A stretch of 64,000 bases of DNA, from NCBI RefSeq assembly GCF_020520425.1, contig NC_079489.1:19306001-19370000 (forward strand), written 5' to 3'. Positions within the stretch are counted from its first letter, which is position 1. Every line of letters begins with the position of its first letter. Under the pieces are notes generated by a model, which did not search any database, was not told the DNA's origin, and saw only the letters and a program-made list of their open reading frames with translations. A program made the translations under genes and the position numbers. Shown here piece by piece: positions 7,929 through 55,678 of the stretch. Source of the stretch: Spinacia oleracea (Eukaryota; Streptophyta; Magnoliopsida; Caryophyllales; Amaranthaceae).

Positions 7929-8281
7929 GGAAAATTTGGTAATATTAATCCAACCTTTGACCGATTTTCTTTTATTAAGCCCACCTACGACATATTTTTT
8001 AATAATCCCACCTTTATTACCCAACAACTTTTATTGGGCCCAACAGGTCATAAAACTGTTGTAAGCGGCATTATTTCTCTACATGGCAGTACTCTCTCTC
8101 GATATATTCAGTCATCATCATCAATTCATCACCATCTCGTTGACTTTTTCACCGATTACCGGCCACTTAAGCCCAATAAAAGTCGTCGGGTAGTAAAGGT
8201 GGGATTATTAAAAAATATGTCGTAGGTGGGATTAATAAAAGAAAATCGGCCAAAGGTTGGATTAATATTACCAAATTTTCC
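7929..8281. mobile_element. Mutator-like non-autonomous element (long TIRs, 9-bp TSD)
   Basis: Begins GGAAAATTTGGTAATATTAA and ends with its inverted complement; the inverted repeats run for about 100 bp and carry aatccaacctttg and cccacctacgacatattttt. It is flanked on both sides by AATATTGAA (7920-7928 and 8282-8290), a perfect 9-bp target duplication as made by Mutator-like elements. 353 bp, no transposase. Related ends occur at 55679-56918. Confidence 0.85.
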
Positions 8282-9784: not shown

Positions 9785-10066
9785 TAAGAGGTTTTTAATT
9801 GCTAATTTTGTTGAAGGATTGTGATTTCAGTGGGTTAAAAATTGAAAAAATAACAAATAGTGGATTAATATCGAGTGTTAAAGAGGGAGATGAGGTGGAA
9901 GAGAATATTAATGTTGAATGAGGAATATAAGTGGTGTGTTAAAGCTGTAAAATAATTCGTATAACAAACCACAAAGGGAAAATTTGAAGGAAAAAAAAAC
10001 AAATTAATGGAGGAAAGATGGGATGACACATGTCATCTAATAATCTATGATATTCCTAGGTATAGA
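9785..10066 (-). mobile_element. Helitron-like relic (same family as 52640-53050)
   Basis: Minus-strand 5' end TCTATACCTAGGAATATCAT, followed by gatgacatgtgtcat and a body with tggattaatat, gatgaggtggaagag and atgttgaatgagg in the same order as the Helitron at 52640-53050. The 3' terminus is not recognisable here. Confidence 0.45.
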
Positions 10067-10458
10067 AAGATATGTGCCATAATGTTATTAGTCTATTGTT
10101 AGCAATTGAGCATAATATTCGTCATATTTTATTAAGATCGGTTATCGAATGGTTATCCGTAGTAATATTTTGTAGAGTAAAGCACAATGTTCCCGGAAAA
10201 TTCAGTTGATAACGAATATGCATGTCAAGCATTTACTGTCAGTTTAAAGAATTACATGTCAAGCACAATGTTATTTTTTGTAGAAAGAGTCACAGGGGTC
10301 AATTGATGTACACAATCTTATGTCATTGGCATCAAACTTCATAGTTTAACCAACTAGGTTAATTGAAATTCAAATTATACATGTTTGTTTGAAGATGTTT
10401 GTTTGAAATTCAAATTAGCTACCACGATATATAGCTAAATGAGCTAGATAGAAAGTAG

Positions 10459-10563
10459 TACCTTTTTTGTACTTCCAGTACTTCCAACAACATAGCAACC
10501 CATGTACTTAGGCAAATTTTCCAACATAGCAACCCATGTACTTGGCAAATTGTCCAACATAGC
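10459..10563 (-). pseudogene. Relic of reductase exon 3
   Basis: On the minus strand this reads VGQFAKYMGCYV, then the same block again, then VGSTGSTKK followed by GT. This is the end of exon 3 of the 2-alkenal reductase genes ([15 protein letters not shown] in the intact copy), with the donor site kept. A segment of about 40 bp (ttggacaatttgccaagtac...) is duplicated in tandem. No other exon of this copy was found nearby, so it is a third, decayed member of the cluster in the same orientation. Confidence 0.7.
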
Positions 10564-10578
10564 ATGTATGTACTTTGT

Positions 10579-10755
10579 TCGGGTATGGTTCATTCGGGTT
10601 TTCTATGGTCGGATTAGATAGAGTCGGGTCTGGATTAGTTTTTTGGGTCAACATCAGATCGATTCATATCGGGTGGATTCATTTCGGATCAGGTTTTCGG
10701 GTTAGATCAGAGTTTTTCGAATTAGATCATGATATATTAAGCCGAATCAGATATC
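10579..10755. repeat. Degenerate TCGGGTT/TCGGATT array (hAT-like family body)
   Basis: Short, divergent repeats of tcgggt/tcggat in one orientation, similar in wording to the array bodies of the elements at 11732-12705 and 19469-21175 (for example catatcggatcggattc-like strings). Terminal motifs are not preserved. Confidence 0.5.
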
Positions 10756-10799
10756 AATTTAACCAATGGATTTGAGGTCATGAAGTTAAGATCAAGTCG

Positions 10800-11288
10800 T
10801 CGATCCCATTTTTGAGGTCTAAATGGAAACTCCAAACTACCAATTATTGGAGTGACTATGGAGCCAAATTGAGATGTAAATGGAAACGCCAAGCAATTAT
10901 TGAAGTGACTATGTGCACATAGAGTTGGATATGGGCTAGACTAGCCTCACATGAGTTTGACCTCACCATGGAACAAACCCGTTTAATTAGCCCGTCATAA
11001 CATGAGAGTCATGCGCTCATCCCATAGAACAAACATGTTTAGCCCGATATTTATATGAGAGTCATGCGCTCATCCCATGGACCGTGCTTATACAACTTTT
11101 TGAGAAATTGACATGAGCACAATGTACTTGAAAAACGTGCACATAGTAGATACACAGTAAAATCTCAAAAAAAAAAAAAAAAAAATTGCTCCCCCATTCC
11201 TAAAAGATTGTCTTATATTTCTTTTATTTGCCCCATATCTTAAATGATAAAATTTTCATTTGTTTTCTCTCTATCTCTCTCCTCATGG
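10800..11288. other. Intergenic, small direct repeat only
   Basis: gagagtcatgcgctcatccc occurs at about 11003 and again about 56 bp later with similar flanks (tgtttagcccg). No gene seen. Confidence 0.4.
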
Positions 11289-11731
11289 GCCCACACTAGA
11301 GCTGTTAAAAACTGACCCGACTCGAGAAATCTACCTGTATTTTTAAGGACCTGGAACCGACCCGAGACCCGAAATCTTATCTTATTAAAAAGAGAATAGA
11401 AGGTTTTGAATTAAGGGGCATTGAAATAGTGCCACCTTTTTGCATAATACCATATGTGTCCTTCAACTTTTATTTTTTATTTTTCTTATTATTTTTCCTC
11501 TTATTCTTATCTCAATACACAATTTTATTTTCATAAGTGTACTTATGTTCTTGTCTTACCATCTTCCAACCCAACATCCTCTTCCATCGCCTCACCCAAC
11601 ACCAGACCAGTCCACCACCAAAATCACTGCTGCCACCAACAATCAGAACCGAAAACAAAAAATTCAATTATTTGAAATTCCGACCCGCACTTTTTGAAAC
11701 CTATAACCACCACGGCGGTGCCTATATCAAC

Positions 11732-12705
11732 TAGACCTGGCAAACGGGTCGTTTGGATCGGATTCGGGTCGGGTCTACTTGGGTCGGGTCGTTTTGGGTT
11801 ATTTTCTTTCGGGCCGATTTCGGGTATGGATCGGGTCCATTCGGGTTTCGGGTTGCTTCGATTTTTTATAATTGGTCGGGTTTGGTTCGGCTCAAAATTT
11901 TGATTCATTATCGGATCAGGTAAATATCAGATAGGTTCATATCAGATCGAGTTTTTTGGGTTATATCGAGTTTTTCGGCAAATCAAGTTTTTCGGGTTTC
12001 GAGTTTTGATTATGTTATTTCTCTTTAGATTTGATGGTCACTATCATAATATTACTAAAGAATTTTCCTATAACACATAAGAGTATAAATTAATAAAATT
12101 AAATACTCCCTTCGTCCCAGATTAGTTGTTACACTTCTAAATTAGGAGTGACCCCACAATTATTATATTGTCTCTCTCTTCCCACTAAAACTTTTTTGGT
12201 CCTCATACCCTCTCTCATTCAAGTAAAAAAATACTCCACTAACTCCTATCACATCTACTATTTCAATAAAATAACAATTGATAACCAAACAACCACTTAT
12301 CACCTAAAACTTTGTGCAAAGGTAAATGTAACAACTAATCTGAGACGGAGGGAGTACTAATAATAAATTAAATAATAATAATATGAAAAGCTAAAAAAAT
12401 GTACTTAAAACTAATGGGTAAATTCGAGTTGATCTTTGGTTCCGATCGGTTTTGAATCTTCGGTTCGGTTCGGGTTTATTTACATTTTACAATTGTTTTC
12501 GGTTCGGGTAAAATTCGGTTTTGGGTGCAAATTGGTTCGGGTATTCCGGTTCAAGTCGTTCGGGTATCGGGTCATTTCAGGTCAAATCACTTCCGGGTCG
12601 GTTCCGGCTTCCAGTCGTGTCTATTTGGTTTTCGGATCAATTTCGGGTTAAAGATCGGATCAATCGGGTCGGTTTTTCAGGTTCGGGTCAGTTTTGTCAG
12701 GTCTA
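11732..12705. mobile_element. hAT-like element with GGGTCGG array body, perfect 8-bp TSD
   Basis: Left end TAGACCTGGCAAACGGGTCG, right end TTTTGTCAGGTCTA, flanked by ATATCAAC on both sides (11724-11731, 12706-12713). The body is degenerate tcgggt/ttcggg repeats (11745-12000 and 12425-12690) around an AT-rich middle that holds a Stowaway-like MITE at 12106-12354. No ORF except those created by the array. Confidence 0.85.
12106..12354. mobile_element. Stowaway-like MITE nested in the hAT-like element
   Basis: CTCCCTTCGTCCCAGATTAG at the left and its inverted complement ctaatctgagacggagggag at the right, with TA on each side. 249 bp, no coding potential. Confidence 0.8.
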
Positions 12706-12720
12706 ATATCAACCATCAAC

Positions 12721-12858
12721 TAGGGATAACAATCTCTGACCCGACCCGATAACCCGACTTGAACCCGAACTAAAGTTATAGAGAGGAATCTGAACCCGGC
12801 CTGAATCGACCCGAAACCAAACCTGAACCTGACCAATTAATCTGAATTGCTACCCCTA
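12721..12858. mobile_element. Small hAT-like array element (138 bp)
   Basis: Ends TAGGGATAACAAT and ATTGCTACCCCTA are inverted. The body is cgacccgataacccgacttg-type repeats. Flanks CCATCAAC and CATCCAAC agree at 6 of 8 positions, a possible decayed 8-bp duplication. It starts 7 bases after the target duplication of the preceding element. Confidence 0.6.
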
Positions 12859-12869
12859 CATCCAACACA

Positions 12870-15079
12870 GTCACCTACTCACCCCTCTTGCAAAAATGAC
12901 AATATCGGAAAGAAATCAAAGTGGTGCAAAATTAATATACAAGTAATAAAAAAAATACTTCGCATTTGAAGCTTAAATAAATCAATGCATTCCCTTTACA
13001 ACATGATGATCACTTTATAGCTTCAATACCATAAAATAACATTCATTAGAGGAAACCAACGAGTTCTAATTTTTAAATTTAGGAATCAATAATGACTTGT
13101 GTATAAGAAATGGAGAATATATAAGTTTTTTCAATTCAAGATAAAATTAAAGAAAAGGCAAGGGTAAACAATTGAAAGAGGAGTTAAGCATAAAGATGGG
13201 GTCTAATCTTTTAACTTTTTCACCGTTTGGGACCTACAACTTATTTTTACACTGTTTAGGACTTACTTTTTATTTTCTTGCCAAAGTTAACCAAAGTAAA
13301 CAAAAGATCAATCGCCTTAGTTAAAAGGTTAGTCCCTTGGTTAAAATAGTTAAAAAAAAGGTCATTTTTGTTTGTAAGAGTCCTCAATCAGGCCTACGAG
13401 TAATTACGAACAACTCATTTTCTCTCTCCTCACCCAAACAACCACCGCTTCAACCACCACTACACTACCCCTCTCTCTTCTCTTGCAATCAACCACCACT
13501 ACACTACGTCAACACCCCTCTCTCTTTTCTTGCAATCAACCACCACTACACTACTACACCACGTCAACACCCCTCTCTCTTCTCTTGCAATCAACCACCC
13601 CTACACCTCTCTTCTCTTGCAATCCTATGGAGGAATTTTTGGAAAGTTTTTGATCTATTGAAGTTGGTTGAAAACAAGAATGAAAGAAATAAGAAGAGCT
13701 TTGTTTAAACATTAAGGGGGCATTTAACCCTCCTCCACGCCGCCACAATTGCCGACATCTGCTCCATGGCGTCACTTAGGCAATTTCCCCCTTTTTTTCT
13801 CCCTTGTTCTTCACATGCAAGCTCATCAATGGCAGTTAATTGATTTTTTTCCCTGGAAAAATGGAAATAATTTGGTATTTTCATTTTTAACAAGGTATGA
13901 TTTCATGTTTGGAAGAGAATCATCTCACAAAATTTGGAGCAAATCGATCTGTATATCGAAAGAACGGAAATAAAATTGTTGGTGCATCAATATGTAGTTT
14001 TGTTTTTGGGGCATGGAATTTTGTTGTTGTTAGTACTTAGTAGCCGGTATATTTAATAAAAGATTCAAATATTCAATTCTAACATTAGAATTCCATTAAT
14101 ATTGGTTAATTTGAGGTTTTGAGAAGGCGACATTGCATTGCGTTGCAATGCAAAATACACTGTTCTTCAAGAAATTGCCTAATATTGGTTAATTTTCATT
14201 TATTTAATTTTTGTTTGGAATTAATTACATTTAAATGTTTTTCTTTGTTTTTTATATTGTTTATGTGGTTAACGGTGAGTTAGCCTTGGGTTAACTTACC
14301 GAAAAGTTGGCTTGAGATCCTAAAAGGTGAAATAAAAGTGTAGGTTCTAAAGGTTAAAAACATGAAAGGCGAGTCCCCATTCTTAGCTTTACTCATTGAA
14401 AGAGAATGGCGGTGGCCATCACATTGCTTGGGTCGGTTTTGGATGGAATTTCGTGTCCGGCCAATTTGTAACGGGTATAAAAGTGGGTGGTTGTTTTGAA
14501 GCCCGTAGAATATTAAAGTTGGTTTAGAAGAGTAAACCACTAACATCAATGAAGGTGGTTTTATTTAAAAGATACGAAGTATTAGGTTAAGGGCACTTTT
14601 AAAATACAAACGAGGCCCAATATGCATAATAGAATAAGAGGGATTAAAATAAGAAAATGAGAAGAAAAAAAATATGAATTCTCTACATTGTGCCTTTGTG
14701 GCATTCTAAGTTGTAATCGTTGTTTTAACATGTACACATTTTACATTTATATCCTTCAGGTGCAATTATTTTTGTACCATAAACTCGCCGTCAACTTTAG
14801 TTAGTTACTTTTCATAATCATTTTCCGTTTATAGAGACACAACGGGAGTGGAGTGAGTGGTGGTGTATTTTCGACCCGTAATGTTGGTTCTAAGGGTTAA
14901 TTTTTATTTAGTTGTAAACTTTCATTATTATTGAATCATTAAATATAGCACTATTTGTTCAATTGATGTAATATAGGTGTACAACCTACGTCTTACTTTT
15001 AAAAACAATGTGTACAACTTATAAAACTCAATATCACAAGAGCATAATGTATCTCCTTACCTATCAAAAAAAAAACATA
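12870..15079. other. Interior of the Helitron, no recognised gene
   Basis: 13195-13270 (gacctacaacttatttttac...) resembles the inverted complement of 14290-14390, so a decayed element of about 1.2 kb with long inverted ends may lie here. 13430-13625 is a tandem repeat of about four units of tctcttctcttgcaatcaac plus accacc(a/c)ctacac. Open frames here are short and match nothing I know. Confidence 0.35.
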
Positions 15080-15412
15080 CTCCCTCCGTCCCGGAATACT
15101 TGACCTGTTTTCCTTATCGGACCGTCCCTTAATACTTGACCTGTTTCTAAAAATGGAAATATTCTAAAAATATTATATTATTTCTCACTCCACCCCTATT
15201 AACCCACCTACCCCCTACTCCATACAAAAAATAATTAAAAATTCAATCCCTACTCTCCTCCAACCCCACCCCTTTACACATTTCCCACTAACTACATTAA
15301 AATAATACCCCACTATCAACTACTACCTATTAAATTAAATTAAATAAGTCAATTCAAGTTCCTTAAACTCTGTGCCGGTCAAACCGGGTTGAGTATTCCG
15401 GGACGAAGGGAG
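15080..15412. mobile_element. Stowaway-like MITE
   Basis: CTCCCTCCGTCCCGGAATAC at the left and gtattccgggacgaagggag at the right, TA on both sides. The sub-terminal motif cttgacctg is repeated. 333 bp. Confidence 0.8.
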
Positions 15413-17418
15413 TAACATTACATAGAAGAAACTGGAAAAAGTTGGCGTGTTTATATTATTGTGACATTAATTCTTTGACACATAAAGCGAATTTTCAAGT
15501 TAATTATCTTTGTGTTTTGAAATGTTTTGTCCTTGCGGGTACTTTTTTTTTTTTTTTTTTTTTTTGACATTCGAATGAACATTGTAACACAAAAATTATA
15601 ACCTACAACGAGGATCTAGAAACAAACAATCAATATTGAGATGTTTTCAATACCACATGGATATCGTAGAGATTTCTAAAACAACAACGACACGTCTTAG
15701 ACATTTAATAAACATTTACATTTTTTTTTTAAATGTGTATATATTCAATTCACCCAAATTTTACTTTTCGAAACATAGAATAACTTATTTGAACTTAACT
15801 AGAATTATTTTGGGGTGTTTGGTCCAACAAGTTGAAATGAAATGGATACCTGACGACCCATAACTAGGAGGTTCGGATTGGAAACCTCATAATTGTTAAA
15901 TTGTGTTTTGTTTAATTGCGGGATGATGTATATTTCTTTCCTTACTGTTTGGTATACACCATACACCTTGGTATGGATTCAAAATCTAAAGTAATGGTGC
16001 CATATTTTACTACGGAGTATATTGATTTTTGGAATGCGATTTATTTTCTACTTTAAAAAGTGTGATTTTATTCTTTAGTCACGTTTGTCAATCCAGAACT
16101 CGACGTGTTACTTCCGTTCTATAATGATGTTTCAATTTAGAATTTGACACTATTCACAATTGCAGAGAATAAATAATTTGAAAATGAAATATTACAATAA
16201 ATAAATAATGAAGTACCGATAAAATATAGTTTAAATAGGATGAAAGAAATATAAATATAAATTATATAAATGTTTGTTTTATACTTCACGATTAAATTAT
16301 TAATTTATGTTATATGAAATACTAAAGTTGACTGACGCGTGCGTAGCACGCGGCAGTTCAACTAGTATTGTTAAAATAGGAAACACGTAACCCGACCGTA
16401 TTCAACCCATTAAAACCAACGACCGATTTCAACCCGTTAATGCATGATCCGGACCCGAACCTGGCACCCGACTGAAATATAACCGATAACAGAACTGAGT
16501 CAACGGAACCGATCGAATGACCCGAACCCGATTCAACACCCGACCCGATGTGAACCCGAAGCCGATTATAACCCTATGAAACCTGTTATTGACCCAACTC
16601 GTAACAATCCGTTACTTGATTTTACACGACTTGTTGACACCCCAATTTGTCATTGACCTTACTAAATAAATCAAGTTAATATTATTTTTTATAATTACCT
16701 AATCTAGATCAAGTGAAAAGCATTAAACCAAATTTATAAAAGTTAATTAATTATAAGGTTAAAACTTGAATAGAACTGATAGTTATCGTACCCGGTCTTA
16801 ACCCGCATCCGATAGTGAATTAACCATAATTTTATCCTACCTGATAATTATCTGATCCGTACTTGACCCGAACTTGACCTGAAGCCGAAATTAACTGCTA
16901 CAAGTTTGACTCAAACCAGACTAGTTAAGACCAGAACCCGAAATTGTACCCGATTAGTAAAATACCCGACCCGGACCCGACCTATACCGAAATGAAAAAA
17001 AACTCCGACATGACCCGACAACTAATCAAGGTGACCGAACCCGACCTGAACTCGACCTGCACCCGGGTGATAAAATGACCTGACACGACCCGACCAGATC
17101 ATGACCCATGACCCGAGATGACCAGACCCGAACCCGACTCGAGTAACCGTTTTGACAGCTCTAGCCCACACTACTAATTCATGTGCACAATTTACACTCA
17201 ATTCTTAATGAAGTGATTTTTAACTATGAGTCAATCTTTTAGAGAGAAATGAAGTACAAAATAGTGTATGTCTTATGGTCCATATGAGCAACTGGATTCA
17301 AAATAGTTGAAATTCAGTAAAAGAAGGATAACATAATACCCTGAAAAAGGAAAATGGGTTAGAGATTTTGGCATGTTAGTTGATATATAGCCTTTTACCA
17401 AGGTTTGTGACTTGTGAC

Positions 17419-17939
17419 TAGACCTAGCAATTGCAAAACTGATCCAGACACGAAAATCGATCTGACTGATCTGATATGTAACCCGATTTTTTGATCCAAA
17501 ACAAAGACCCACAACTAAACTGAAACCTAAAGTGATTCGACCCGAAATCGAACCACAATTGATTTGACTCGATACCAAAATCAACCAAAATTGAAGTAAC
17601 CCGAACCGATATTCACCCGAAACGGAAGTAACCCAAGGTTATATTCATCCGAAACTGAAGTAACCTGAAGTCCTGAACCGGCATTCAGCCAAAATCGAAG
17701 TAACCGAAATCGAAAATAACTGTAAAAAAATTAACAAATCCAAATCTATCCGAACCAAAGGCCCAAAATCAATCCGAACCAAAGAACAAGTCAAATTTAC
17801 CAATAGTTTAAACTAATTTTTTTTTTGTCATTTAACACCTTAAAAAAAACCAGTTTTTGTAATTTAACACGTTACTTAATTTTTATTATATTTAAACACC
17901 ATAGCAATCAGCAATGTCCCGATCACATTTTTACAAGTA

Positions 17940-17986
<47 letters not shown>

Positions 17987-18452
17987 TAAATAATATAAAT
18001 AATAATAATATAAAAATAATATTTATAAAAATAATAAAAATAATAATAAATAGAAATAGAATTAACAAAAATTAATAACAACAAGTCAACAACTAAAATA
18101 AACTCTGAACCGTATATGCTTAACCCTTAATTATTTTGTACGACCAAATCTAAAGCGAATAACCTGATTAAAACTCGAAACTCGAAAAAATCGATCTAAC
18201 TCAAAAAACTAAGATCTAACCCGAAAACCAGATCCGAAAACTCACCCAATATAAACGATCTGATGTTGACCCGAAAAACTAAATCAGGTCGGACTCTATC
18301 TAATCCGACCATCAAATATCCGAATTAAACCCAAAACCTGAACGGAACCGAACCGAACCATACTCAACCCCGACTCGAATTAAAAGTGACATGAAATGAC
18401 CCATTCCGAAATCCGAATAAACCCTATCCGAATAACTCATTTGTCGGGTGTA
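17419..18452. mobile_element. hAT-like element with ACCCGAAACCGAA array body
   Basis: Left end TAGACCTAGCAATTGC. Right end, read inverted, TACACCCGACAAATG. Flanks CTTGTGAC (17411-17418) and GTTGTGAC (18453-18460) match at 7 of 8 bases. The body is degenerate cgaaaccgaagtaaccc repeats on both sides of an AT-rich core with an AAT microsatellite. No transposase. Confidence 0.7.
17941..17983. repeat. (AAT)n microsatellite
   Basis: About 14 uninterrupted AAT units followed by imperfect ones to about 18050. Confidence 0.9.
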
Positions 18453-18468
18453 GTTGTGACTTTCCACA

Positions 18469-19191
18469 TCTATTACTATATACTAAAAAAGACACCAGGA
18501 ATGACACATGTCATTTCCTGGTGCGATTTTTTTCCGCCAAAATATTTTTTTTCTTTTTACTTTAAAATAAATAAATTACATTACGTTTTTTTAGGAAACT
18601 AAGATAAAAATATATTTTAATTACCATAGATGTGTACTGCATAATATATTATTGGAGGAAATCTAAATCAATATTATTTTTTCCTTTATGATATAATTTT
18701 ATTTATGTATTATTATAACTTTTTAATCTGATAAGAAATATAAAACAATATTGATAAATGAACTTCTAATGTTAGTCTACTATTAATAATTATAATACAT
18801 GGTAACTGGTAAGTAAAAATGTTAATTAAAATAATAATATATGGTAAGTAGACTAACATACGGAGTATAAGTTTATTTATCAAGGTTTTACTCAATTCAA
18901 AATATGTTGTATTTGACTAACTCGGTTATACTCGGGTCTTTTCGAAAATTAGTCTTGAGTTAGTCGGGTTTGGTTAATGTTGTTAGGTCGTTCTACATAC
19001 AAGTAAACGACTATAATTTTTAACTTACTATATGCAAATTTAGCTCATTTGAATATTTTTTTTACACAACTTTGAATTTATACTTTTTCATATATCCTTT
19101 TTACTTTCATATTTTCCTAATATCACAAGTCTTTTAGTTACTATTAAAATAATGAATTATTTTAATAGTTGTTGCACGGGCCCTAAACTAG
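18469..19191 (+). mobile_element. Non-autonomous Helitron
   Basis: 5' end TCTATTACTATATACTAAAA after an A, then gacaccaggaatgacacatg and a partly inverted tcatttcctggtgc. The 3' end is gcacgggccctaaactag. The next base is C rather than the usual T, and only half of the terminal hairpin is visible. 723 bp, AT-rich, no ORF. Confidence 0.5.
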
Positions 19192-20001
19192 CATTTTACT
19201 GTTCACCATTTTTGTTACACAAAAACTAAAAAAAAATATATAAATTGACGTCATGTTAACGGTTAACCCTATAATATAAAGATATGTGTTGAACATATCA
19301 TATAAAAAAGATCATGTTTTATACATGTAAGATCCTGTTTTTTACAAAAGTACGGAGTACGTATGTCTCAATATATAGTTTGCCTCAATACATAGTTTCC
19401 ACTTGTATATACTCCATCCGTTCTTTAATACTCGCACCTTCTTCAGGCCGTCAGTTAATACTTGCACCTAGGGGTGTCAAATCGGATCAACGGATCGGGT
19501 TTGGGTCGGACTCATCGGATTCGGATTGAAACTGATCGGATTGGAACGGATTAATTTGGTTAACGGGTCGGATCGGATCGGATTGAAAACTTAACGCACC
19601 GGATCGGGTCGGATTATTTATTCACGGGTTCATATCGGATCGGGTTGTAAACGGGTCGGATTGTAGTCGGTTTGGGTCGGATCGGATCGGATTGGAATAT
19701 GACGGATTGTTAACGGGTTTAGTCGGACTATAACGGGTTCGGGTTCATGTCGGTCGGATTCATATCGGATCGGATTCATATCGGATCGGATTCGTAACGG
19801 ATCGAATTTGTATCGGATCGGATTCATATCGGATCGGTTTAATCGGTAACAGACTAAAACGGGTCGGATTGAAACAAATTTAGCCTGGTTACATTGGATT
19901 CAGTTTTAAATTGGTTCGGGTAATTACCGTATCGAGTTATTCGGTAGCGGGTTGAAATTTTGGTCGGGTCCATCCGGTTCCAAATTATATAGTATTATAA
20001 T

Positions 20002-20377
20002 GGAAATTTGGTGAAACACTACCTTTAATTTTGGTGGTTTTGTGAATTGCTACCTTTTAAAAAGGAAATTATATTTTACTACCTTATAAGTTTGGTTTGT
20101 TTGACTAACACTACCATTTGCCGTTTTTTGTTAATGTTTTACGTCTTTGGACTCCACTACAACGGTTATTTAATATGGAAAATGCACAAAATGACAAATG
20201 AACAGAGATATTTAAAAGAATAGAAGAAATACACGACGGAAAACATTAAAGAAAAACGTCAAATGGTAGTGTTAGTCAAACAAACCAAACTTATAAGGTA
20301 GTTAAATTAAAAAAAGTTTTTATAAGGTAGCAATTCACAAAACCACCAAACTTAAAGATAGTGTTCCACAAAATTCC
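20002..20377. mobile_element. Mutator-like non-autonomous element (9-bp TSD)
   Basis: Long inverted ends, ggaaatttggtgaaacacta at the left and tagtgttccacaaaattcc at the right, continuing inward through accaccaaa / tttggtggt and tggtagtgttagtcaaacaa. Flanked by TATTATAAT on both sides (19993-20001, 20378-20386). 376 bp. Confidence 0.88.
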
Positions 20378-20494
20378 TATTATAATATCGATAACTTAAA
20401 TAGGGGACGAATACGATAACTAACTTTTAAAAGTAATAAGAATTTAAGATCAATAATATAAGTTATTGAGTATATTGTATAACTTGGTTTAATA

Positions 20495-20683
20495 CTACCT
20501 CCATTCCTGAAAGTTATTTACGTCTTGGAATATGTGTACAAAGTATGAAAACTTTGACCGTACATTCTCACTATTATATACATCAAAATGTTATCATGTA
20601 AGATCTTGTTATATTGGTCTCGATATATATTTTCAGAATATTAAGTTTTTATAATTTTTTCATATACGAAATTGGATATCTTA
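20495..20683. mobile_element. Truncated Stowaway-like MITE
   Basis: The left part matches the element at 24075-24325 (gaaaactttgaccgta, catgtaagatcttgt, tacgaaattggatat); the right half is missing. It is followed by a short direct duplication, ggattgatgatgataaccat, seen twice. Confidence 0.6.
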
Positions 20684-21275
20684 TGGATTGATGATGATAA
20701 CCATATGTACGGCTTCATTGTATGGATTGATGATGATAACCATATGTCACGGATTAAAAACGGATCGGATTAAACGGGTCACGGATTAAAAACGGATCGG
20801 ATTAAACGGGTCACGGGTTGAAACGGGTCGGATTAAACGGGTCACGGATTTAAAACGGATCGGATTAAACGGATCACGGGTTGAAACGGGTCGGATTAAA
20901 CGGATATTCCTCGGGTTGGAACGGATTCGGATTGAAACGGATTGGATCATAAACGGGTTTCGGATCGCTTCAGATCGGATTGTCACGGATCGGACTGTTA
21001 ACGAATTCGGATCTTAATCGGATCAATACTAACGGGTTGGGTCGGATTCGGGTTGAATATAATCGGATCGGATCGGATTTCGGATTTTAACTCACGGGTT
21101 CTAAACGGTTCGGATTCTAAACGGTCGGACAAACCCATCGGGTTCACTGGGTCGGATTGAGAATTGACACCCCTAGTTGCACCGCTTCTATAAATGAATT
21201 TTTTTTACCAATATTATATTATTTTTCACACTTGCCTATTAACCCACCTACACCCCTACTTAATGAATTCCAAAA

Positions 21276-22099
21276 TATAAATCTTATTTATCTTATTAAG
21301 AATCCTAGACTTAGTCAATTACCTATTTATTAAAGACTTTTAATCAAATTAAAACTCTTAAATAAACTATCCTAAATCACGTTTATATTATAAACTTACT
21401 TACAATTATATTAATACATATTAACGTTATGTTTAGGATGCAGACCAAGTTCCACGGGCACAAGCTACTTAGACACGAGTTCCACATACCTGAGTTCCTC
21501 AGACACAAGTACCACTTACACGAGTTCCTTTACATTGAAGCCCATGATGTAAACTCATACCTCCAGACTTCTTCTCTTCGAGTTCCCCCTCAGGAACTGC
21601 TGCTTCTCTTTCAGAGTTCCTCTAGCTCATCTGGAGTTCCAGTTCTTCAGCAGGAACTTTACAACTCCCAGCTTCTATAGATCGAGTTCATCCTTAGGAA
21701 CTTCTCTACAGTTCCAGCTCTGGATTTTATGCTTCTTTGTTATAAGCATCTCACAATCATCAACTTCCAGCAAGCTCTATTATTGATGACTTGGGCTCAA
21801 CTATTTATTAATGATCTTTGTACACATACAACTTGAAAACCACGTTAGTTGATTACTTTAGTTTGTCATCATCAAAACCATATTGGTTCAACACATATTT
21901 TTGACAAAAAAGGACAATGAAAGTTTGTTTCAATTTTGTTAGTTGACGTATATGCCAGTAAAAAGATTACGGGTAGCGGGCAACGATATTGCGTCGGATT
22001 TATCAATTTTTTCCTATGCAAAATCCGCACCCTTAAATATTAAGGGTATTATCAATATTTTATGTGGAAAAAAAAATTACTTAAGAGTTGACTAATATA
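21276..22099. other. GAGTTCC-rich stretch, possible LTR-retrotransposon relic
   Basis: 21435-21730 repeats gagttcc/caagttcc about twenty times at irregular short spacing and is open in one frame for 83 codons with a recurring LRHxFH pattern. At about 21868 the string gtttgtcatcatcaaaa resembles text found near the ends of some Ty1/copia elements. No LTR pair, no domain. Identity uncertain. Confidence 0.3.
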
Positions 22100-22101
22100 T
22101 A

Positions 22102-22670
22102 CTTTCTCCATGAGAATTTAGAAATAGTTGCACTACTTTCACTTTATGCACTGTTTATATACTCACTCCGTATTTATTTAAGGGATACACTTGCCTTTTC
22201 CGGCCGTATTTATTTAAGAGATACACTTGTCATTTTTAGTAACTTATCACCCCACCATCTAATTAAATAATACATATAATTTACCCTATGACCCACCATC
22301 CTATTAAACAAATAATTTCATGAACCCACCCCACCTCCACCACCAAAATGACATGGTCCCCACTTGTTTAATTATTAAAATATCTATCCAACCCCACTTG
22401 CTTTATTATTTTATTTCATTCAATTTTTTTTCTTAATACCCGTGTCCAGCCAAGTGTATCTCTTAAATAAATACGAAGGGAGTATATTTACAAAAAATAA
22501 ATATTATTACGAATCATATAAAAAAGTGATTGGATTTATCTCAATATTTATTTTTCAAATTATAAAAAAAATTACTTTTTTTAACAGACAATTAAAGATA
22601 TTAATGGTTAAAATTGTGCGTTGGCAAACATAAAAGTGAAAGTGGTGCAACTATTTCTAAATGAAAGAAG
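22102..22670. mobile_element. Stowaway-like MITE, outer, interrupted by another
   Basis: Left ctttctccatgagaattta... and right ...tttctaaatgaaagaag are inverted, with agttgcac(t/c)actttcact shared in both arms, and TA at both sides. The element at 22162-22482 is inserted in it. Confidence 0.7.
22162..22482. mobile_element. Stowaway-like MITE (GTATTTATTTAAG family), copy 2
   Basis: Starts ctcactccgtatttatttaa and ends ttaaataaatacgaagggag, TA on both sides. Very similar to 2466-2789 over its whole length, including the internal actlines atgacatggtccccacttgt. Confidence 0.8.
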
Positions 22671-23038: not shown

Positions 23039-25939
23039 CTAGAAGCAGCCTTTAGGCTCAATTGAACCAAAGATCCGTCCCATAGTGTTAATACAAGATG
23101 ATCCCGCCTCTTGATTTCTAAAGGTGAGATCTACACCATCTAAGTTGATATTCGTACAATGGTATTCTGAACTGCAATCAAATTTCATAGCAATCGGTGT
23201 GGCTGATGATCCATGAATATCCTGATATGTCACATCACTGATTCTTACTCCAGAAACCTATTTAATTTATTTGTAAACAATTCCTAAGTTAGCACTAGAA
23301 ACTAGAAAGTGGATAAAATCGATTTGATGATCAAACAAATGAAAGATTTAATGTTACCTTTCCAGGGCAACCCCTCTCATCTGGACAATAGTTTTGGTCG
23401 ATGATGATAGGATTTTGAGCATTCACCATTGTTAGGTGTTGAAACAGAACATTTCTCACAAATCCGTTGCTCGGTCTTCCCCAAGATTTAATCCTGACTC
23501 CATTCTCAGTGCCAGTAAAACTACAACTCTTGACTGTCACATTCACTACCCCTGCCTCGTTTAGCTCCTTCCCTAAACTTCCAATGCTGAGATTCAATCA
23601 TTTGAAACCATGTTAATTAATTAAAACACTAGCTAATTACTACCGATCCGTTTTAAAATGATCTTTACGGTTACTAGCTATTTGCACAAATATTACGACA
23701 AAATAGAAACAATATGTAAAAAAAGTGAGTGGATATGATAAAATATGTATAAAGTATAGTAGATGGGTAAAAATGTGGGTGGGTGGAAAAAAAAATGAAT
23801 AAAGTAAGAGATCGTGAATGAAAAGTTATAAAATATTATGGGGGTAAGAGGGGTAAAATAGTAAATTTTCACGTCAAAAAATAGAATATAGTGAAGTGTG
23901 TAAAGATTATTATGAAACGGATTAAAAGAGAAAGTGTAAATATCATTTTGAAACAGATGTAGTGTTAATGCATTTAAACTTAAAGAACACTTAATTTCCG
24001 CAATGGAATCACTATCTTAGCCCTAGGTAACACTTATTAATTTGAGTCCAAGTTGTTCGTGTTTTAAAATACTACTTTCTCCGTTTCGAGAAGTTCTTTA
24101 CACTTAAGAATATGTGTCTAAAATATGAAAACTTTGACCGTAAATTCTCACTATTATATACATCAAAACGTTACATGTAAGATCTTGTCAGATTGGTCTC
24201 GGTATATATTTCAGAATATCAACTTTTTATATTTTTTCCACATACGAAATTGGATATATTAATAGTTAAATATTGAATTGGAGTCTGTGCAAATACTAAC
24301 TGTAAAGAACTTTCTGAAACGGAGGTAATAGTATACTACGTATAATGGTGTAGAGTTCAACCTAATGAATTGTTTGAAATCACACTTAATTAATAAATAA
24401 ATACCTAATGCCATGACCAGGTCCGCAAGCCATATTTTCAATCCATAAGTTAGTAGTGCCAGCACCAATTGATACACAATCATCTCCTGTAGCTATTTTA
24501 GTGTTCATGATCGTCACTCCGGTTGATAATTGAACATGGATGCCATCGGTGTTAGGACTTGCAGCTGAAGCAGACACTTTTACTCCTTGTACTTTTACAT
24601 TCGTACAACCGTCAAAAACAATATGATACAATTGGCTGTTCAGTGACGTTAATCCATTGATTATAATGTTCCTCGAATTAGAAAACCTAATTGTCTGCAC
24701 ATATATAAAACTTGTTAGATCAGAACATCATCAAATCTATGTTAATATATTGCAATAGAGAAAATCATCAAATTATCATAAGATCGGTTTGTTGTAAGAG
24801 TAGATGACAAGTTGAAAAATGTGTTCAACTAATCAAAACTTTGACCATAAATTCTCACTATCATATCTATAAAAAATTAACTTGATATATCATGGTGCTG
24901 GCCGCCAATTTCGGTTGGACCAACCATGGTCCGGGCCGTCAATTCCGGGTGGACCAACTATGGTCCGAGCCTCCAATTCCGGGCGGCCCTTGTGTTTTAA
25001 AAAAAAATGAATTAATTTTTTTTCCCGCTAGGTAAAAACGAATGTAATAAAAATAAGAAAAATAGTTTATTATTTCGTTTTTAATTTCGAATATTCTAAA
25101 AAGTGTTGCAAAAAAACAGAATTGAATAATTACTAAATTTCATAATTAAAATAATTAATATAATTGAAAAAAATAAAATTGTTAGCAGTTTTTGTTTAAA
25201 AATTGTAGTTTAAAATTTTTATATGTTTATATATTAATTTTGATTCGAAAAAAAGTTTAAAAAATGTGAAGGGGAAGAAGGGTGAAGGGAGATGGGGTAA
25301 TTTTCTTTAAAAGGGTAAAATTGGCATTTCATCATAAATACGCGGGCGTTTTTAGCGATTTAGGACGTCGAATAAAAACCCCCATTAGTAATAGATAGAT
25401 ATCCTGAGCACTACGCAGTACGTAGCATAGGCACAAACTAGTAATTAATTTAATAAATCACTTACTGTAGCTCCCGGGGGACAACTCTTTCCAGCCCTCT
25501 TACAAGCCCACAAACCAGCACCTTGTCCATCAAAGACTCCACCGGAGATAGAAACTCCGGTAACATCTTCAAAGGAAAACCATGTACCGGAATTTCCAAG
25601 CACTCGAAAGTCGGTTGGGGCCACTAAGGTACCTCTAATGACAAATTTTATAGCTTTGTTGTTACAATTCTTCCCACTAAATATTAAGGGTGAGTTAACC
25701 ATGTACCTTCCTTGAGGGACAAATATTATGGTAGGGTTTCTCAGCCCACATGCATTATTCCATGCAGACGTGAATGCCCTTGATGAATCCGTTATACCGT
25801 CACCTTTCGCACCAAGGCTCACTAAGTTAATATTGTTCGGACCATTAGCTTCGACGATTTGTGGGTTTATGACCAAGATTAAGGTCAAGAAAACAATAAG
25901 TATAGGTTTTAAGGATAATGATGTTACTTTGGTTTCCAT
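23039..25939 (-). CDS. Polygalacturonase (GH28), gene 1, probable exo-type, secreted
   Basis: Four exons: 25466-25939, 24405-24694, 23358-23586 and 23039-23257 (stop TAG). GT-AG introns join into 1212 nt, 403 aa, the normal family length. GH28 enzymes hydrolyse alpha-1,4-galacturonan (pectin) in the cell wall. A signal peptide is visible at residues 1-31 (hydrophobic PILIVFLTLILVI, then EA). The catalytic landmarks of the family are all present: SPNTDG (Asp 208), GDDC (Asp 229 and 230), GPGHGI (His 252) and VRIKSW (residues 285-290). The wording NIxLDxVxLTxxNQ and IEPKGCF at the C terminus resembles the pollen exopolygalacturonase group, but exo versus endo action is inferred. Intron 1 holds a GC-rich tandem repeat and a possible Helitron end; intron 2 holds two MITEs. 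It has a paralogue at 49839-52203 with exons 2-4 of identical length. Confidence 0.93.
23645..23963. mobile_element. Stowaway-like MITE in intron 2 of polygalacturonase gene 1
   Basis: Left ctaccgatccgttttaaaat (then gatctttac) and right gtaaatatcattttgaaac (then agatgtag) are imperfect inverted ends. The same family recurs at 26925-27230 (gtaaagattattttaaat). Confidence 0.55.
24075..24325. mobile_element. Stowaway-like MITE in intron 2 of polygalacturonase gene 1
   Basis: ctttctccgtttcgagaagt at the left, actttctgaaacggagg at the right, and agttctttac/gtaaagaact inverted. TA at both sides. 251 bp. Confidence 0.75.
24890..25441 (+). mobile_element. Possible Helitron in intron 1 of polygalacturonase gene 1 (3' end clear, 5' end uncertain)
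   Basis: The 3' end is CTAG (25438-25441) followed by T, with a hairpin CTACG-cagta-CGTAG twelve bases upstream. The left limit is a guess; the segment starts with three tandem copies (24893-24990) of a unit of about 34 bp containing tggtccgggccgccaattcc, which is unusually GC-rich for this intron. Confidence 0.35.
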
Positions 25940-26029
25940 TTTTCTTAGTAGAAAAAAATAGAGAAGAAAGTGAAAAAGGAAAGGAAGTTTGGGATGTTGA
26001 GGATGGAAATAACATGGATTGGTGAAGGG

Positions 26030-26037
26030 TATTTATA
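26030..26037 (-). promoter_or_regulatory. TATA box of polygalacturonase gene 1
   Basis: TATAAATA on the minus strand, about 90 nt upstream of the ATG at 25939; the only good TATA motif in the proximal upstream region. Confidence 0.55.
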
Positions 26038-35350: not shown

Positions 35351-35939
35351 CGTTGTACGAAAACATAATGTAACAAGGCCGATAGAGCCATATTTTGAAA
35401 TCTAATATATAAGCTGCAAGTATATTCCAGGTAAACTATACATAAACAAAATCAAAGGTTGAGCACATTGGCTCAGTCAGTAATGTTGCAAGATAGGACA
35501 TAAACGAAGAAAAAGGTTGAGCACATTGGCTCAGTCAGCAATGTTGCAAGATACGACAAAAACGAAACAAAAGGTTGAGCACATTGACTCAGTCAGCAAT
35601 GTTGCAAGATACAACATAAACGAAGCAAAAGGTTGAGCACATTGGCTCAGTTAGCAATGATGCAAGATACGATACAAACGAAAGCAAAAGGTTGAGCACA
35701 TTGGCTCAGTCAGCAATGATGCAAGATACGATATAAACAAAAGCAAAAGGTTGAGCACATTGGCTCAGTCAGCAATGATGCAAGATACGATACAAACGAA
35801 AGAAAAAGGTTGAGCACATTGGCTCAGTCAGCAATGATGCAAGATACGATATAAACAAAAGCAAAAGGTTGAGCACATTGGCTCAGTCAGCAATGATGCA
35901 AGATACGATATAAACAAAAGCAAAAGGTTGAGCACATTG

Positions 35940-37465: not shown

Positions 37466-38715
37466 TTATTATCAAGAATATGACGTTTATTAATTTATAA
37501 CTTTGAAAATTAAGAATATAAAAGTACTTCTATTAATTATTTTATAATTTACGAATTAACGTTTTTCAAAAAGTAAAAAGGATAATTTTATTTTATAAGT
37601 CGTTTTTATTAATTCAATCGAGTTACTAATATTAATTATTTAATAAACAAGAAGAAGAGGTCCTTGGAGCTCAAGAAGAACGGCTCATCGAAAGTAAGGA
37701 AAACGAGTGCTAATAGAGGTTGAGGTAACATCTATTGCTAACACCCACAATCCCCTTCGCAAATGCGTTTATGGAAATGATTTATGAATTTGAGAAAAGC
37801 TTTATGATTTACAACCATGTTTATGATACGATTCTTGTTTGAATCGTGGGATTCTCTTTTTATTTCAATAATGAATTTATTAAAGTATGAATGATTTCAA
37901 TGAGCCTTACGAAGCATGATTTATGATTATGAAATGATATTCTGTCAACGCATGAATAAGAAACGAAACATGATAATGAAAAGCGAAAGACAAGGTTCTT
38001 GCAGTATTTGATCTGTTCTGTTTTGATTCTGATTCTGATTCTGATTCTGATTATGGTCGTGCACGTACCCTCGTACCCCGCTACCCCATGATGGGTAACG
38101 TCTGTTTCTGTCTGATTATGATGGTACGATCTGGTGGGAGACGTCCTACATTCTGTTCATACTTGCCAGTAACCATGAATGAATGTTTTTAATAATATAA
38201 TGGAAAACTATTACATTTTATCTTATTTGTTTATCTTGAATTGCAAAAGATTTTATGAAATGATTTGCAAAAGGTTTTACAATATTCTACTCTCCTTCTG
38301 TTTGCAAGTAAAATGAATTGAAATGAATTTACGTTGTTAGGGTAGTTGTTACTGGGCCTCGGCTCATGATATTGCTTTTGGTTTTAGGTACCGAAGAGGA
38401 CAACGGGATGGATTAGTGGTGAGGACGTATCAGTTAAAGCAAGGTTACTCAGTTTAATAAGTGAGCTTCACTAGTTAATTATGTACTGAAAATCTAGCTT
38501 TAATTCTAAGAATTATTATAGTTTGTATTATGACAATTTAGTTAATATCACGAGTCTTTTGTTTCATTAATCTTAGTTTATATTTATATTTAATTATGCG
38601 CCTTGTACCTCTCAATAGAGAGGTACGACATGTGACGCACCGACTAAACTAGGATTCCGCTGCTAATTATAGATTAATTAACTTAATAAAATTGATTAGA
38701 AGTCGGGGCGTTACA
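35940..38715. mobile_element. Solo LTR, about 2.8 kb, of another Ty3/gypsy-like element
   Basis: Begins TGTAATTCCCCATATTTT and ends GTCGGGGCGTTACA (TG...CA), flanked by CATTG on both sides (35935-35939, 38716-38720). A TATA-like ctataaatag at about 36681 would be its promoter. No gag or pol. Long LTRs with TGTAA..TTACA ends occur in Del/Tekay chromoviruses, but the lineage is not proven. It inserted after the host element's tandem array had formed. Confidence 0.8.
37378..37464. repeat. (TTA)n microsatellite inside the solo LTR
   Basis: About 29 TTA/ATT units with hardly any interruption. Confidence 0.92.
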
Positions 38716-39431
38716 CATTGGCTCAGTCAGCAATGATGCAAGATACGATACAAACGAAAGCAAAAGGTTGAGCACATTGGCTCAGTCAGCAATGATGCAA
38801 GATACGATACAAACGAAAGCAAAAGGTTGAGCACATTGACTCAGTCAACAATGATGCAAGATACGATATAAACAAAAGAAAAAGGTTGAGCACATTGGCT
38901 CAGTAAGCAATGATGCAAGATACGATATAAACGAAAGCAAAAGGTTGAGCACATTGGCTCAGTCAGCAATGATGCAAGATACGATACATAACAAAATCAA
39001 AGGTTGAGCACATTGGCTCAGTCAGCAATGGGGAAACATAGGACACAACACAATAGTTAGAAAACGCCATTACGTGACAAGTCGAACAAAATGAAACAAA
39101 CGAGTAATCCATTAAGTACATCACACAAAAGTTAAGAAATACAAAGACGACAGCCACCACCCAAAGATAGAAAAACGCAGAGTGAGTAGCTGTTTAACGG
39201 CACAAACATACGCCGCAAACGGCGCAGTCAAGACGAACACAACGTTCTTGAAACACTAATACGCAACAAAAGGCGAGTGCCACAACAACTAAAAATAAGC
39301 AAAAGAAATTGCTCATAAATTGCATCCGCCAATAACATTCACAAAACTACCAACAGAAATTAACAAGTGCGAGGCCTGAAATAACTGTTGGAAGAGCCAC
39401 AGGAAGAGCCTGGTGATGACTGCCAAGACCG

Positions 39432-44074: not shown

Positions 44075-44260
44075 AGTTGCAACACAATGTTGAGTAGAAA
44101 CACAAAGAATAATATATGGACAACTAAACCAAACCAAACAAGTTGATTATCGATCATATATATTTATGCATGAGCAAATCAAAACAACAGTATGTAAGCT
44201 TGAGAAACTTTCTCCCCAAGTATTCTCTCGGCGCATGTTAGCATAACGTGCACTGACGCC

Positions 44261-45547
44261 ATGGCAAGAAAAACTGGGGCAAAATCTCAAGCAAACAAGC
44301 ATGGAAATGGAACTGGCAAACCTCGTGGTCCTTCTTCTGATTCACAGGCGCTCAAAACACGCTCGTTGGATGAAGTTTTGGGGGTAGAGGCGTTGGATTT
44401 TGGATTGGAAAACGAGGTTTTCACTCCAAAATCTTCATTGAAGCAGCTTCAAGTTCGATCGGAAGCTCGAAATTCTTTCAATGAATTCATGGAGGTCATC
44501 CATGGAACGCAGAGTCGAGCTCGATCTTCAAGTTCTCGTCCAAATATGGATGTAGGTATGATCTCTGTTCCCATATTGCAACATTTTGAGGATGAAATAG
44601 TTGTTGATAATAATGTGAATGAATCTGCTGGGTTAGCTGATGATAATATCATGCCAGTTCAAATTGAGTTGGATGATATTCAGAGTGAAATAGATTTTTG
44701 GAATTCTGCAGTTGTGTGCTATGTTGTAGGAGCTAATCCCCCAATTAATGTGATGGAGGGTTATGTTAGGAGAATTTGGGGGGGGGGGGGATTGAAGGTG
44801 GATAAGGTGGTGCTAGTGAAGAAGGGTGTATATCTGGTGCGATTTTTGTCTATGGAATCAAGGGATAAAGTGCTGCAGGGGCATTATTTCTTTGATAGCA
44901 AACCCTTGATTGTGAAACCTTGGGATCAGGATCTGGATATGGATAAAGAGGAGGTGCAAGTTGTTCCCATTTGGATTCAGTTGAAGCTGAATTTCAAATA
45001 CTGGAGTGAAAAGGCATTATTCAAAATTGTGAGTCAGGTGGGAAAACCAATCAAAAGAGACTATGCTACCACATGTAGAGATAAAATTCAGTTTGCTAGA
45101 GTTATGGTGGAAGTTCCCATGGAGAAAATCTTACCTGATCACTTATTCTTCATGGATGAACATGGTGAAAAGGTTAAGGTGGATCTGAGATATGAATGGA
45201 AGCCTACTCTATGTAATAAATGCAAGATGGTGGGGCATGCTGAAGCAGAATGCAGGCAAGGTAAGAGTAGGAAGGTGTGGGTGCAGAAACAGACAGAAGG
45301 GGTTGCTCAACCACAGAAAGAGACTATAGCCACTGAGGTGGATCAGGAAGGTTTTCAAAGGGCTTTGAGACCAATTAGGGCCAGAGCTGATTCAATGGAA
45401 CCAACCCAAATTGCTAACCCTTTTGATATACTGCAGAATGAAGAGATGGTTGACACTAGTGTTAATGTGACAGGTGGGGGAGGGAACTTGAGTAGACAGG
45501 AGGGTAGACAAAGTGGAAGGGGGGACCCTTCACCACCTCATGGATAG
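44261..45547 (+). CDS. LINE ORF1 protein (DUF4283 + CCHC zinc knuckle)
   Basis: 428 aa, intact. Residues 144-290 (EIDFWNSAVVCYVVGANPP ... MVEVPMEKILPDH) match the DUF4283 domain of plant L1-type ORF1 proteins. C318, C321, H326 and C331 form a CX2CX4HX4C zinc knuckle. The N terminus is low-complexity and basic, as expected for an RNA-binding chaperone of the LINE particle. A run of about eleven G within a GGGG-coding stretch near 44780 is a slippage-prone site, but the frame is kept. The stop overlaps the start of ORF2 (ATG at 45540). Confidence 0.85.
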   Translation: MARKTGAKSQANKHGNGTGKPRGPSSDSQALKTRSLDEVLGVEALDFGLENEVFTPKSSLKQLQVRSEARNSFNEFMEVIHGTQSRARSSSSRPNMDVGMISVPILQHFEDEIVVDNNVNESAGLADDNIMPVQIELDDIQSEIDFWNSAVVCYVVGANPPINVMEGYVRRIWGGGGLKVDKVVLVKKGVYLVRFLSMESRDKVLQGHYFFDSKPLIVKPWDQDLDMDKEEVQVVPIWIQLKLNFKYWSEKALFKIVSQVGKPIKRDYATTCRDKIQFARVMVEVPMEKILPDHLFFMDEHGEKVKVDLRYEWKPTLCNKCKMVGHAEAECRQGKSRKVWVQKQTEGVAQPQKETIATEVDQEGFQRALRPIRARADSMEPTQIANPFDILQNEEMVDTSVNVTGGGGNLSRQEGRQSGRGDPSPPHG

Positions 45548-48500: not shown

Positions 48501-48830
48501 GCCAAGTTAGCAAAAATAGGGGTGAGCACCTCTACTGATTGTTTAATTTGTAAGCAAGCTGCTGAAATTCATGAGCATCTGTTTTTCAGTTGTCAGTACA
48601 GCCAAATGTGTTTTCAAGACCTGGCAGCATGGCTTAACATTAGAAATGTCAATACTGGTCTGCACAATGTCATCAACACCATCAAGAGAGGGAAGCATTC
48701 CAAGTTCAGGAATCAAGTATGCTATGCAGGGGTGACAGCTCTGGTTTACTTGATTTGGAAAAGTAGGAATCAGAGTTTTTGGGAAGGGTCAGTTCCAACA
48801 GTTGATTCTGTTATGAGTAATCTGAAATGA
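45540..48830 (+). pseudogene. LINE ORF2 (endonuclease - reverse transcriptase - zf-RVT), three in-frame stops
   Basis: One frame of 1096 codons ending TGA at 48828-48830, interrupted by TAG at 47325, 47853 and 48246 without any frameshift. Domains: APE-type endonuclease from the start (LSWNVRGINSLKK; MCGDFNCV; SKLDRVLAN); reverse transcriptase from about 46870 (GTKAPGPDGFGSFFYK; FRPISCCNTLYKC; LRQGDPMSP; FADDLILC); C-terminal zf-RVT domain (VVWNRLNVPKHRF; DCLICKQAAEIHEHLFFSC). The first stop replaces the conserved Trp of the AYDTVDW motif, consistent with TGG to TAG. The upstream overlap with ORF1 is 8 nt. Confidence 0.88.
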
Positions 48831-52203: not shown

Positions 52204-52246
52204 GTATTTTGTTTTCTAGGGTTTATTGTATTAATGGTGTTCATTC

Positions 52247-53712: not shown

Positions 53713-54177
53713 CTCCCTCCGTCCCTTAATACTCGCACCGGTTTGACCGGTTCAGAGTTTAAGATATTTGACCTTCCCGTCAATGTGAACTCTTGGGGAA
53801 GATCAGCCTGTTATCCCTAGAGTAACTTTTATCCGTTAGATTCTTATACATATTCCGTGGGCTCGGATTACGGCTGTGGATATCAAGTCAAGTATACGAA
53901 CTCCTTCTACCCAAGATTTATTAATTTAATGTGTGTTGGTTGATAGTGATGTATTTTTTTAATATAGTTAGTGGGAAATGTGTAAGAGGTAGGGAGTGGT
54001 GAGTGGGGGTGTGAATTTTTAAATGATTTTTTGTAGGGAATATGGGTGTAGGTGGGGTTAGTAAGTAAGTGTGAGAAATAATATAATATTGGTATAAATT
54101 TCCATTTATAGAAGCGGTGCAAGTATTAAGGGACGACCGAAAAAGAAAGCGGTGCGAATATTAAGGGACGGAGGGAA
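53713..54177. mobile_element. Stowaway-like MITE (family of 62502-62826) carrying an organellar DNA patch
   Basis: CTCCCTCCGTCCCTTAATAC at the left, its complement gtgcgaatattaagggacgg then aggga at the right, TA at both sides. Compared with 62502-62826 it has about 143 extra bases at 53772-53914 and lacks about 6 MITE bases at the join. Confidence 0.8.
53770..53838 (-). other. Nuclear copy of plastid 23S rRNA gene fragment (NUPT)
   Basis: The minus strand reads as the domain V region of plastid 23S rRNA, including the near-universal GGGATAACAGGCTGAT (plus-strand complement at 53802-53817) and the neighbouring ttccccaagagttcaca. I see one or two differences from the plastid sequence I remember. 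Too short to be a functional rRNA. Confidence 0.85.
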
Positions 54178-55440: not shown

Positions 55441-55444
55441 ACCT

Positions 55445-55600: not shown

Positions 55601-55678
55601 TCGGACAAGTTGGTTACTTTTCATATTTTTCAGGAGTTACTTAACTCAATATTTAATAAGGTACTGGTTGTAATTTTA

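Follow-up and report, generated by a model that had tools for sequence, protein, structure and literature searches.

The window, that is, the whole 64,000-nucleotide stretch of spinach DNA analysed here (C3:19306001-19370000 of the 894-Mb genome), consists of plant-like DNA with 37% GC. It contains four elements, hereafter A to D, each delimited by paired inverted ends of the TAGRNNTGNCAA type and by an 8-bp duplication, which is identical on the two sides in A and B (8/8) and matches at 7/8 positions in C and D. The outer limits of A are 11297-17163 (minus strand, with the head at the right and the duplication GCCCACAC), and those of B are 11732-12705 (plus strand, duplication ATATCAAC). Element C (17419-18452, minus strand) is a degenerate relative of B, both of its arms aligning to those of B, and D (19469-21175, plus strand) carries the SIMPLEHAT-like ends TAGGGGTGTCAA. 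The preliminary description had also listed a fifth, minimal 138-bp copy that adjoins B (E, 12721-12858, minus strand); its ends are TAGGGATAACAA and TAGGGGTAGCAA, and its duplication, which matches at 5/8 positions, was not confirmed. Short terminal inverted repeats are present in A, B, and D and degenerate in C and E. We found a sixth array, F (10577-10796, plus strand), in addition to these five: it is a fragment of the B/C group, 73% identical to part of the head arm of C, bracketed by no end pair and adjoining a 34-bp tandem repeat (10488-10564).

The region 10000-22500 was scanned, without use of any motif, for 12-bp inverted ends lying 80-6500 bp apart and accompanied by an 8-bp duplication, with at most one mismatch in total. 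The scan returned four matches, three of which are A, B, and D and the fourth a palindrome within a MITE, and C was absent from them; on 60 dinucleotide shuffles the same scan gave a mean of 0.03 matches and a maximum of 1. A looser search, using the motif of the preliminary description with at most two mismatches and a duplication of at least 7/8, yielded five pairs in the window (A to D and a pair at 54066-57207 without an array). Since 20 two-base-block shuffles also yielded 0-5 pairs (mean ~1.6), loose pairing is a weak test, and for this reason the case for C depends on how it aligns with B.

Nested insertions in the elements

Reading 11297-17163 as one element, as previously proposed, turned out to be incorrect. 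The sequence of A itself accounts for 876 of the 5867 bp (11297-11374 and 16366-17163), and the remainder is a Helitron-like insertion (11375-16365, plus strand), with a 5' TC and a 3' hairpin followed by CTAG, placed between A and T, which harbours both B and E. The two pieces of A were aligned to an intact relative without the Helitron (L033, 886 bp, duplication CTTGAGAC, 8/8): the main piece corresponds to bases 1-811 (70%) and the 78-bp tail to bases 811-886 (74%). As the two pieces meet at base 811, L033 represents the empty site for the Helitron. Among the listed open reading frames of at least 55 aa, no Pfam domain above the cut-off was found in the Helitron. What was annotated as a 5.9-kb repeat element is thus corrected to a stack of nested elements. 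A Stowaway-like MITE also lies within the Helitron-like element, at 15080-15412.

The centres of B and D hold further insertions, both identified by eye: a Stowaway-like MITE in B (12106-12354), whose inverted CTCCCTTCGTCCC-type ends are flanked by TA copies, and a Mutator-type MITE in D (20002-20377), with the 9-bp duplication TATTATAAT. D is in turn inserted in a Stowaway-like MITE, an uninterrupted copy of which is found at 15077-15234. The joined flanks of D matched this copy with a score of 145, against a maximum of 75 in 200 shuffles; since the MITE copy shows a gap of one base at the target, the flank match by itself supports the limits of D without proving them. A 315-bp MITE-like element of another family, with inverted ends ATCCAACCTTTG and the duplication TAATATTA, lies at 7948-8262.

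Directional arms and kinship among the elements

Both arms of each of A to D carry CGG-type units in the same direction. Excluding the main inserts of A, B, and D, the CGG:CCG counts were 5:42 in A, 35:5 in B, 5:23 in C, 94:4 in D, and 1:6 in E, and CGGRT was found on the favoured strand ~4-9 times as often as expected from shuffles. The unit subtypes are TCGGGTC in A, B, C, and E and CGGATCGGATT with AAACGG in D, and others occur elsewhere.

The elements had been described as filled with arrays of one orientation. The single direction was borne out, and intact copies of D elsewhere in the genome are array nearly throughout, with a dip only at ~400-600 bp; B, C, and D of the window, in contrast, have their repeats in two arms flanking a poorer centre. 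The arm profile places the arms of B at ~11732-12000 and ~12430-12705, with 7, 6, 2, 0, 0, 0, 1, 7, 7, and 6 CGG per 100 bp along the element. In C, the head arm (~18140-18452) and the tail arm (~17419-17810) enclose an (AAT)n-rich centre, and in D, which is enlarged by insertions, the arms span 19469-19995 and 20738-21175. Inserted sequence accounts for part of these poorer centres in B and D. Along the main piece of A, the CGG density falls to 0 in one bin. In general, arm profiles, counts, and the array loci of C1 described below place subterminal repeats next to both ends of the elements.

D contains 16- and 32-bp tandem amplifications, with a 32-bp unit present in five tandem copies in its tail arm (20746-20903, plus strand; Tandem Repeats Finder, 89% matches). 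A helical phasing of the units was considered and rejected: a ~5.2-bp CGG period appeared in 3/8 segments, all of them from D, and an excess at 10.2-11.0 bp appeared in none. When the head was compared with the inverted tail, A, B, and C scored less than the mean of the shuffles; D scored 77, against a shuffled maximum of 60 and a direct score of 242. A strong self-complementary structure of the hATpin kind was not found in A to D.

Kinship among the arms was assessed against unit-shuffled controls, and 7/36 pairs of arm segments scored above all 100 of them. These pairs were the main piece of A with the left arm of B, the left arm of B with the head arm of C, the right arm of B with the tail arm of C, the left arm of B with F, the head arm of C with F, the tail arm of C with the right arm of D, and, barely above the controls, the tail arm of C with E. 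The head/tail cross pairs of B and C were not above the 100 controls; when the test was repeated with 30 controls, the cross pairs were just above these, far below the matching pairs. B and C are 60-63% identical in both arms, and A is linked to the window group through the head arm of B alone. The pairs A/L033, B/C, and D/L030 are separate families or subfamilies.

Copies elsewhere in the genome and transposase-coding relatives

Searching the genome from the element ends, we found 18,561 places with the motif, the reversed pattern giving 10,535. Seven facing pairs were hand-picked among the first 100 motif places listed: 4/7 have 8/8 duplications (L006, L029, L032, and L033), and those of L030 (3/8), L031 (1/8), and L034 (2/8) are poor, L031 being flanked on both sides by ATCTAC, out of register. 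CGG/CCG repeats are present in 6/7 pairs, all except L034, and lie on both strands in L006. L029 and L032 are 96% identical and have different duplications. In the interior of L030, a Pfam scan that covered 10 of the 15 open reading frames of at least 50 aa gave no hAT domain.

A pattern built on the D-type array matched 228 times genome-wide, and its reversed control 0 times. All 26 matches on C1, falling in 13 loci, were inspected: 7/13 loci have paired ends and an 8/8 duplication, against 0/260 random stretches. They comprise L040, L041, and L048-L051, which are of the D type, and L045, which belongs to another family. As for the other loci, L044 has both ends, with a duplication matching at 4/8 positions, both arms without a full end pair are present in L042 and L046, L043 and L052 retain the head arm only, and L047 is unrelated to the family. 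The expectation that most such arrays carry ends and duplications was thus confirmed at 7 loci and not at the other 6/13, which we count against the interpretation given below.

With lengths of 1014-1064 bp (~1.03 kb), the six intact D copies contain 84-91 CGG against 1-3 CCG and have a mutual identity of 97.4-98.3%, so that the D array is one inherited sequence that has recently spread; the D of the window is 93.3-94.1% identical to them. Furthermore, A is collinear with L033, B with C, and D with L030 and L031, and for B/C and D/L030 the head/head and tail/tail alignments are the best ones. An origin of the arrays as self-made satellites, suggested earlier, is not supported in view of this inheritance and collinearity, some local tandem growth in D aside. 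What emerges is a hAT family of recent spread, its body consisting almost entirely of directional subterminal repeat.

A random sample of C1 (20 stretches of 10 kb) gave 13 matches to a loose repeat detector. On inspection, none of the 13 in these 200 kb was an array of this kind, each holding 0-3 TCGGRT-type units, and arrays of this kind are therefore not common. Several of the loose matches on C1 are a different TCGGAAAT repeat. A dispersed repeat of another kind, rich in TCGGAAATATT units, was seen near-identical at several random places of C1 (L012:853-1150, L015:1826-2123, and L020:4971-5268). Pattern scans of viral contigs for outside relatives gave 0 matches.

As regards coding relatives, the Pfam hAT dimerisation domain gave at least 150 scored matches from 459 candidates in the genome, and three loci among the matches listed were inspected with their flanks. 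One of them, C4:172004586-172008826, has ends TAGGGCTGAGCA matching at 12/12 positions and the duplication ATAGCAGT (8/8). Its open reading frame of 735 aa holds a hAT dimerisation domain (3.8e-27), an RNase-H fold (1.2e-20), and a BED finger slightly under the cut-off, and stretches rich in CGGATCGG/CGGATATCC adjoin both ends. Another, C1:1866491-1872554 (6064 bp, duplication TATATGAT, 8/8), has arms at both ends and a broken transposase, with the hAT dimerisation domain (5.5e-28) and the RNase-H fold (2.2e-23) in separate frames. Such ends or arms were not found at the third locus, L037.

The 579-bp array element L045 (8/8) matches both ends of C1:1866491-1872554, at 63% over 325 columns in the head and 71% over 346 columns in the tail, with 45/46 in the last 46 columns; head/tail cross comparisons were not above shuffles. 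As both of its ends match a coding element, the array element of this family is a hAT cut down to its ends and subterminal arms. The proposal that the elements are hAT-like and non-autonomous is therefore upheld by the ends, the duplications, the genome copies, and a coding element that shares ends and arms with L045. A coding relative that shares ends and arms was thus seen for L045, with a broken transposase; a coding partner with the ends of A to D, for which TAGGGGTGTCAA (D), TAGAGCTGTCAA, and TAGACCTGRCAA are the relevant sequences, was not found at the three loci among the transposase matches listed. The arms compared with the two coding elements, from A, B, and D, gave a weak match or none, and the arms of these two coding elements and of L006 run in mixed or opposed directions, unlike those of A to D. 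Inside the window, a hAT domain was found by Pfam in 0/63 listed stop-to-stop open reading frames, i.e., all 17 of at least 150 aa in the window and all 46 of at least 55 aa in the region, a scan that short exons would escape.

Relation to known hAT elements and interpretation

SIMPLEHAT transposons, as the name suggests, have a body of simple repeat. The 25-nt probe published for the Arabidopsis 'Simplehat' terminates in the reverse complement of D's TAGGGGTGTCAA (PMC3189211), and in the window 12/12 matches to this probe end are confined to the two ends of D; the ends of the others match at 9 and 10 (A), 8 (B), 6 and 7 (C), and 9 and 10 (E) of the 12 bases. The preliminary description knew of no account of the family and did not rule one out; with this end of D, an undescribed family is not supported. 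The likeness to SIMPLEHAT1/SIMPLEHAT2 of Arabidopsis thaliana, which are termed a DNA transposon (PMC6753494), concerns the terminal 12 bases of D as compared through the probe, not the body, and the probe bases beyond these 12 differ from D. In our literature searches we recognised no description of CGGGTC-filled hAT elements.

Two short motifs recall other plant hAT systems. AAACGG, the reported Ac site (PMC3260210), occurs 16 times on one strand of D against 2.5 expected and 11-13 times in each whole intact D copy; A, B, C, and E have 0 or 1 per strand, and neither these four nor F are enriched in it. The maize Ds-l4 elements, 438/486 of which are reported to have at least three AAACGG copies (PMC3260210), resemble the spinach elements in a length of ~1 kb and in the 8-bp duplications, and may resemble D in this motif; they have 11-bp Ac/Ds ends in common and contain filler DNA, whereas the spinach elements are much or mostly repeat. 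The motif CTGACCCGA occurs 3 times in the window, each time in a tail (A, B, or E) at base 15-16, and in L033 at base 16 of the tail and in one internal copy; the ends of C, D, L029, and L032 lack it. The window contains 30 copies of its core, TGACCC, and 18 of these lie in 10000-22000. In Arabidopsis Tag1, the subterminal motifs are described as different between the ends, with TGACCC at the right (PMC3143072), a likeness by motif description to the tails of A, B, E, and L033. The hATpin/BvhATpin elements are likewise short non-autonomous plant hAT derivatives; hATpins have, according to a title cited in PMC12804786, highly stable secondary structures, whereas the spinach arms both run one way.

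The elements belong to an already known kind of plant transposon. With a probability of roughly 0.87, they are non-autonomous hAT elements of the SIMPLEHAT kind, comparable to maize Ds and composed of ends and subterminal arms of probable transposase-binding repeats. hAT transposases are reported to bind short subterminal repeats and may require at least 100-200 bp per end (PMC10368747). Each element would retain what a transposase made elsewhere needs, that is, short inverted ends and directional CGGGTC/CGGATC-type arms, the two arms occupying nearly the whole element in the D family. The hAT transposase of a coding relative, which presumably moves A to D, would bind the arms, join the two ends, and then cut and paste the element. 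The arms may grow via local tandem duplication, extra sites being tolerated or helpful. The notion of run-away transposase-binding sites is thus the best reading of the arrays, with AAACGG in D and TGACCC by some tails as the motifs from which we infer binding. That the arms are overgrown arrays selected to out-compete other elements for scarce transposase seems rather unlikely to us; if it were true, the D family, with ~88 units in ~1.03 kb, would be the end point of a race for transposase, and the unit subtypes would record the transposase exploited by each lineage. Together with such a family, coding elements with similar arms in the same genome make it testable whether extra binding sites favour a non-autonomous element.

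The arrays could instead be simple repeats grown by slippage inside hATs, with no role in transposition and the ends alone being relevant. The 16- and 32-bp amplifications of D would agree with this, as would the report that some Ds1 elements are mobile without AAACGG repeats (PMC3260210). Slippage alone is nonetheless improbable, since the arrays are inherited, as the near-identical D copies and the alignments of A/L033, B/C, and D/L030/L031 indicate, and array arms flank hAT transposase genes too. A chance likeness among ends of unrelated element types, to which the motif pairs arising in shuffled sequence would lend themselves, has a probability close to nil in view of the strict motif-free scan and the search from the arrays, and is effectively excluded for D.

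In a further alternative, the CG-rich arms would owe their persistence to DNA methylation and siRNA silencing, either because they attract these or because they are preserved by them, and not to transposase. The CpG observed/expected ratio is indeed high in the arrays (0.98-1.95, against 0-1.12 in five other stretches). SIMPLEHAT2 is reported as a locus of Pol IV/Pol V-dependent 24-nt siRNAs and RNA-directed DNA methylation (PMC6753494, PMC4081062, PMC3335838, PMC4209038) and is termed a silenced transposon; bisulfite primers are published for it, and SIMPLEHAT1/2 are reported to be over-represented among variably methylated transposons. By analogy, arrays as methylation targets would fit this work. 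As the reason for the arms, however, silencing is very improbable: it is the usual fate of plant transposons and requires no array, and in the six recent D copies transitions at CpG (17/1141 sites) occur no more often than at other C/G sites (23/1535), both being above A/T (8/3467). In older arrays, CpG transitions account for 42/54 single-base unit variants at the two CpG positions. Of the 42 CG sites of B aligned to C, 18 are retained, 15 are changed to TG/CA/TA and 3 otherwise, and 6 fall on gaps. Since CpG and other C/G transitions are equal in the recent copies, we dropped an excess of CpG-specific decay and do not claim it.

Other features were observed in the rest of the window. Nearly the same 59-bp tandem unit, rotated, is repeated at 35442-35939, directly after an open reading frame with an integrase domain, and at 38714-39030 (8.5 and 5.4 copies). 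Two minus-strand open reading frames ~26 kb apart (25445-26032 and 51730-52215) have pectate-lyase-like and GH28-like matches, the GH28 match of 25445-26032 being below the cut-off. At 44204-48830 lies a LINE-type element whose separate open reading frames hold domains of the DUF4283, endonuclease, reverse transcriptase, and zf-RVT types.
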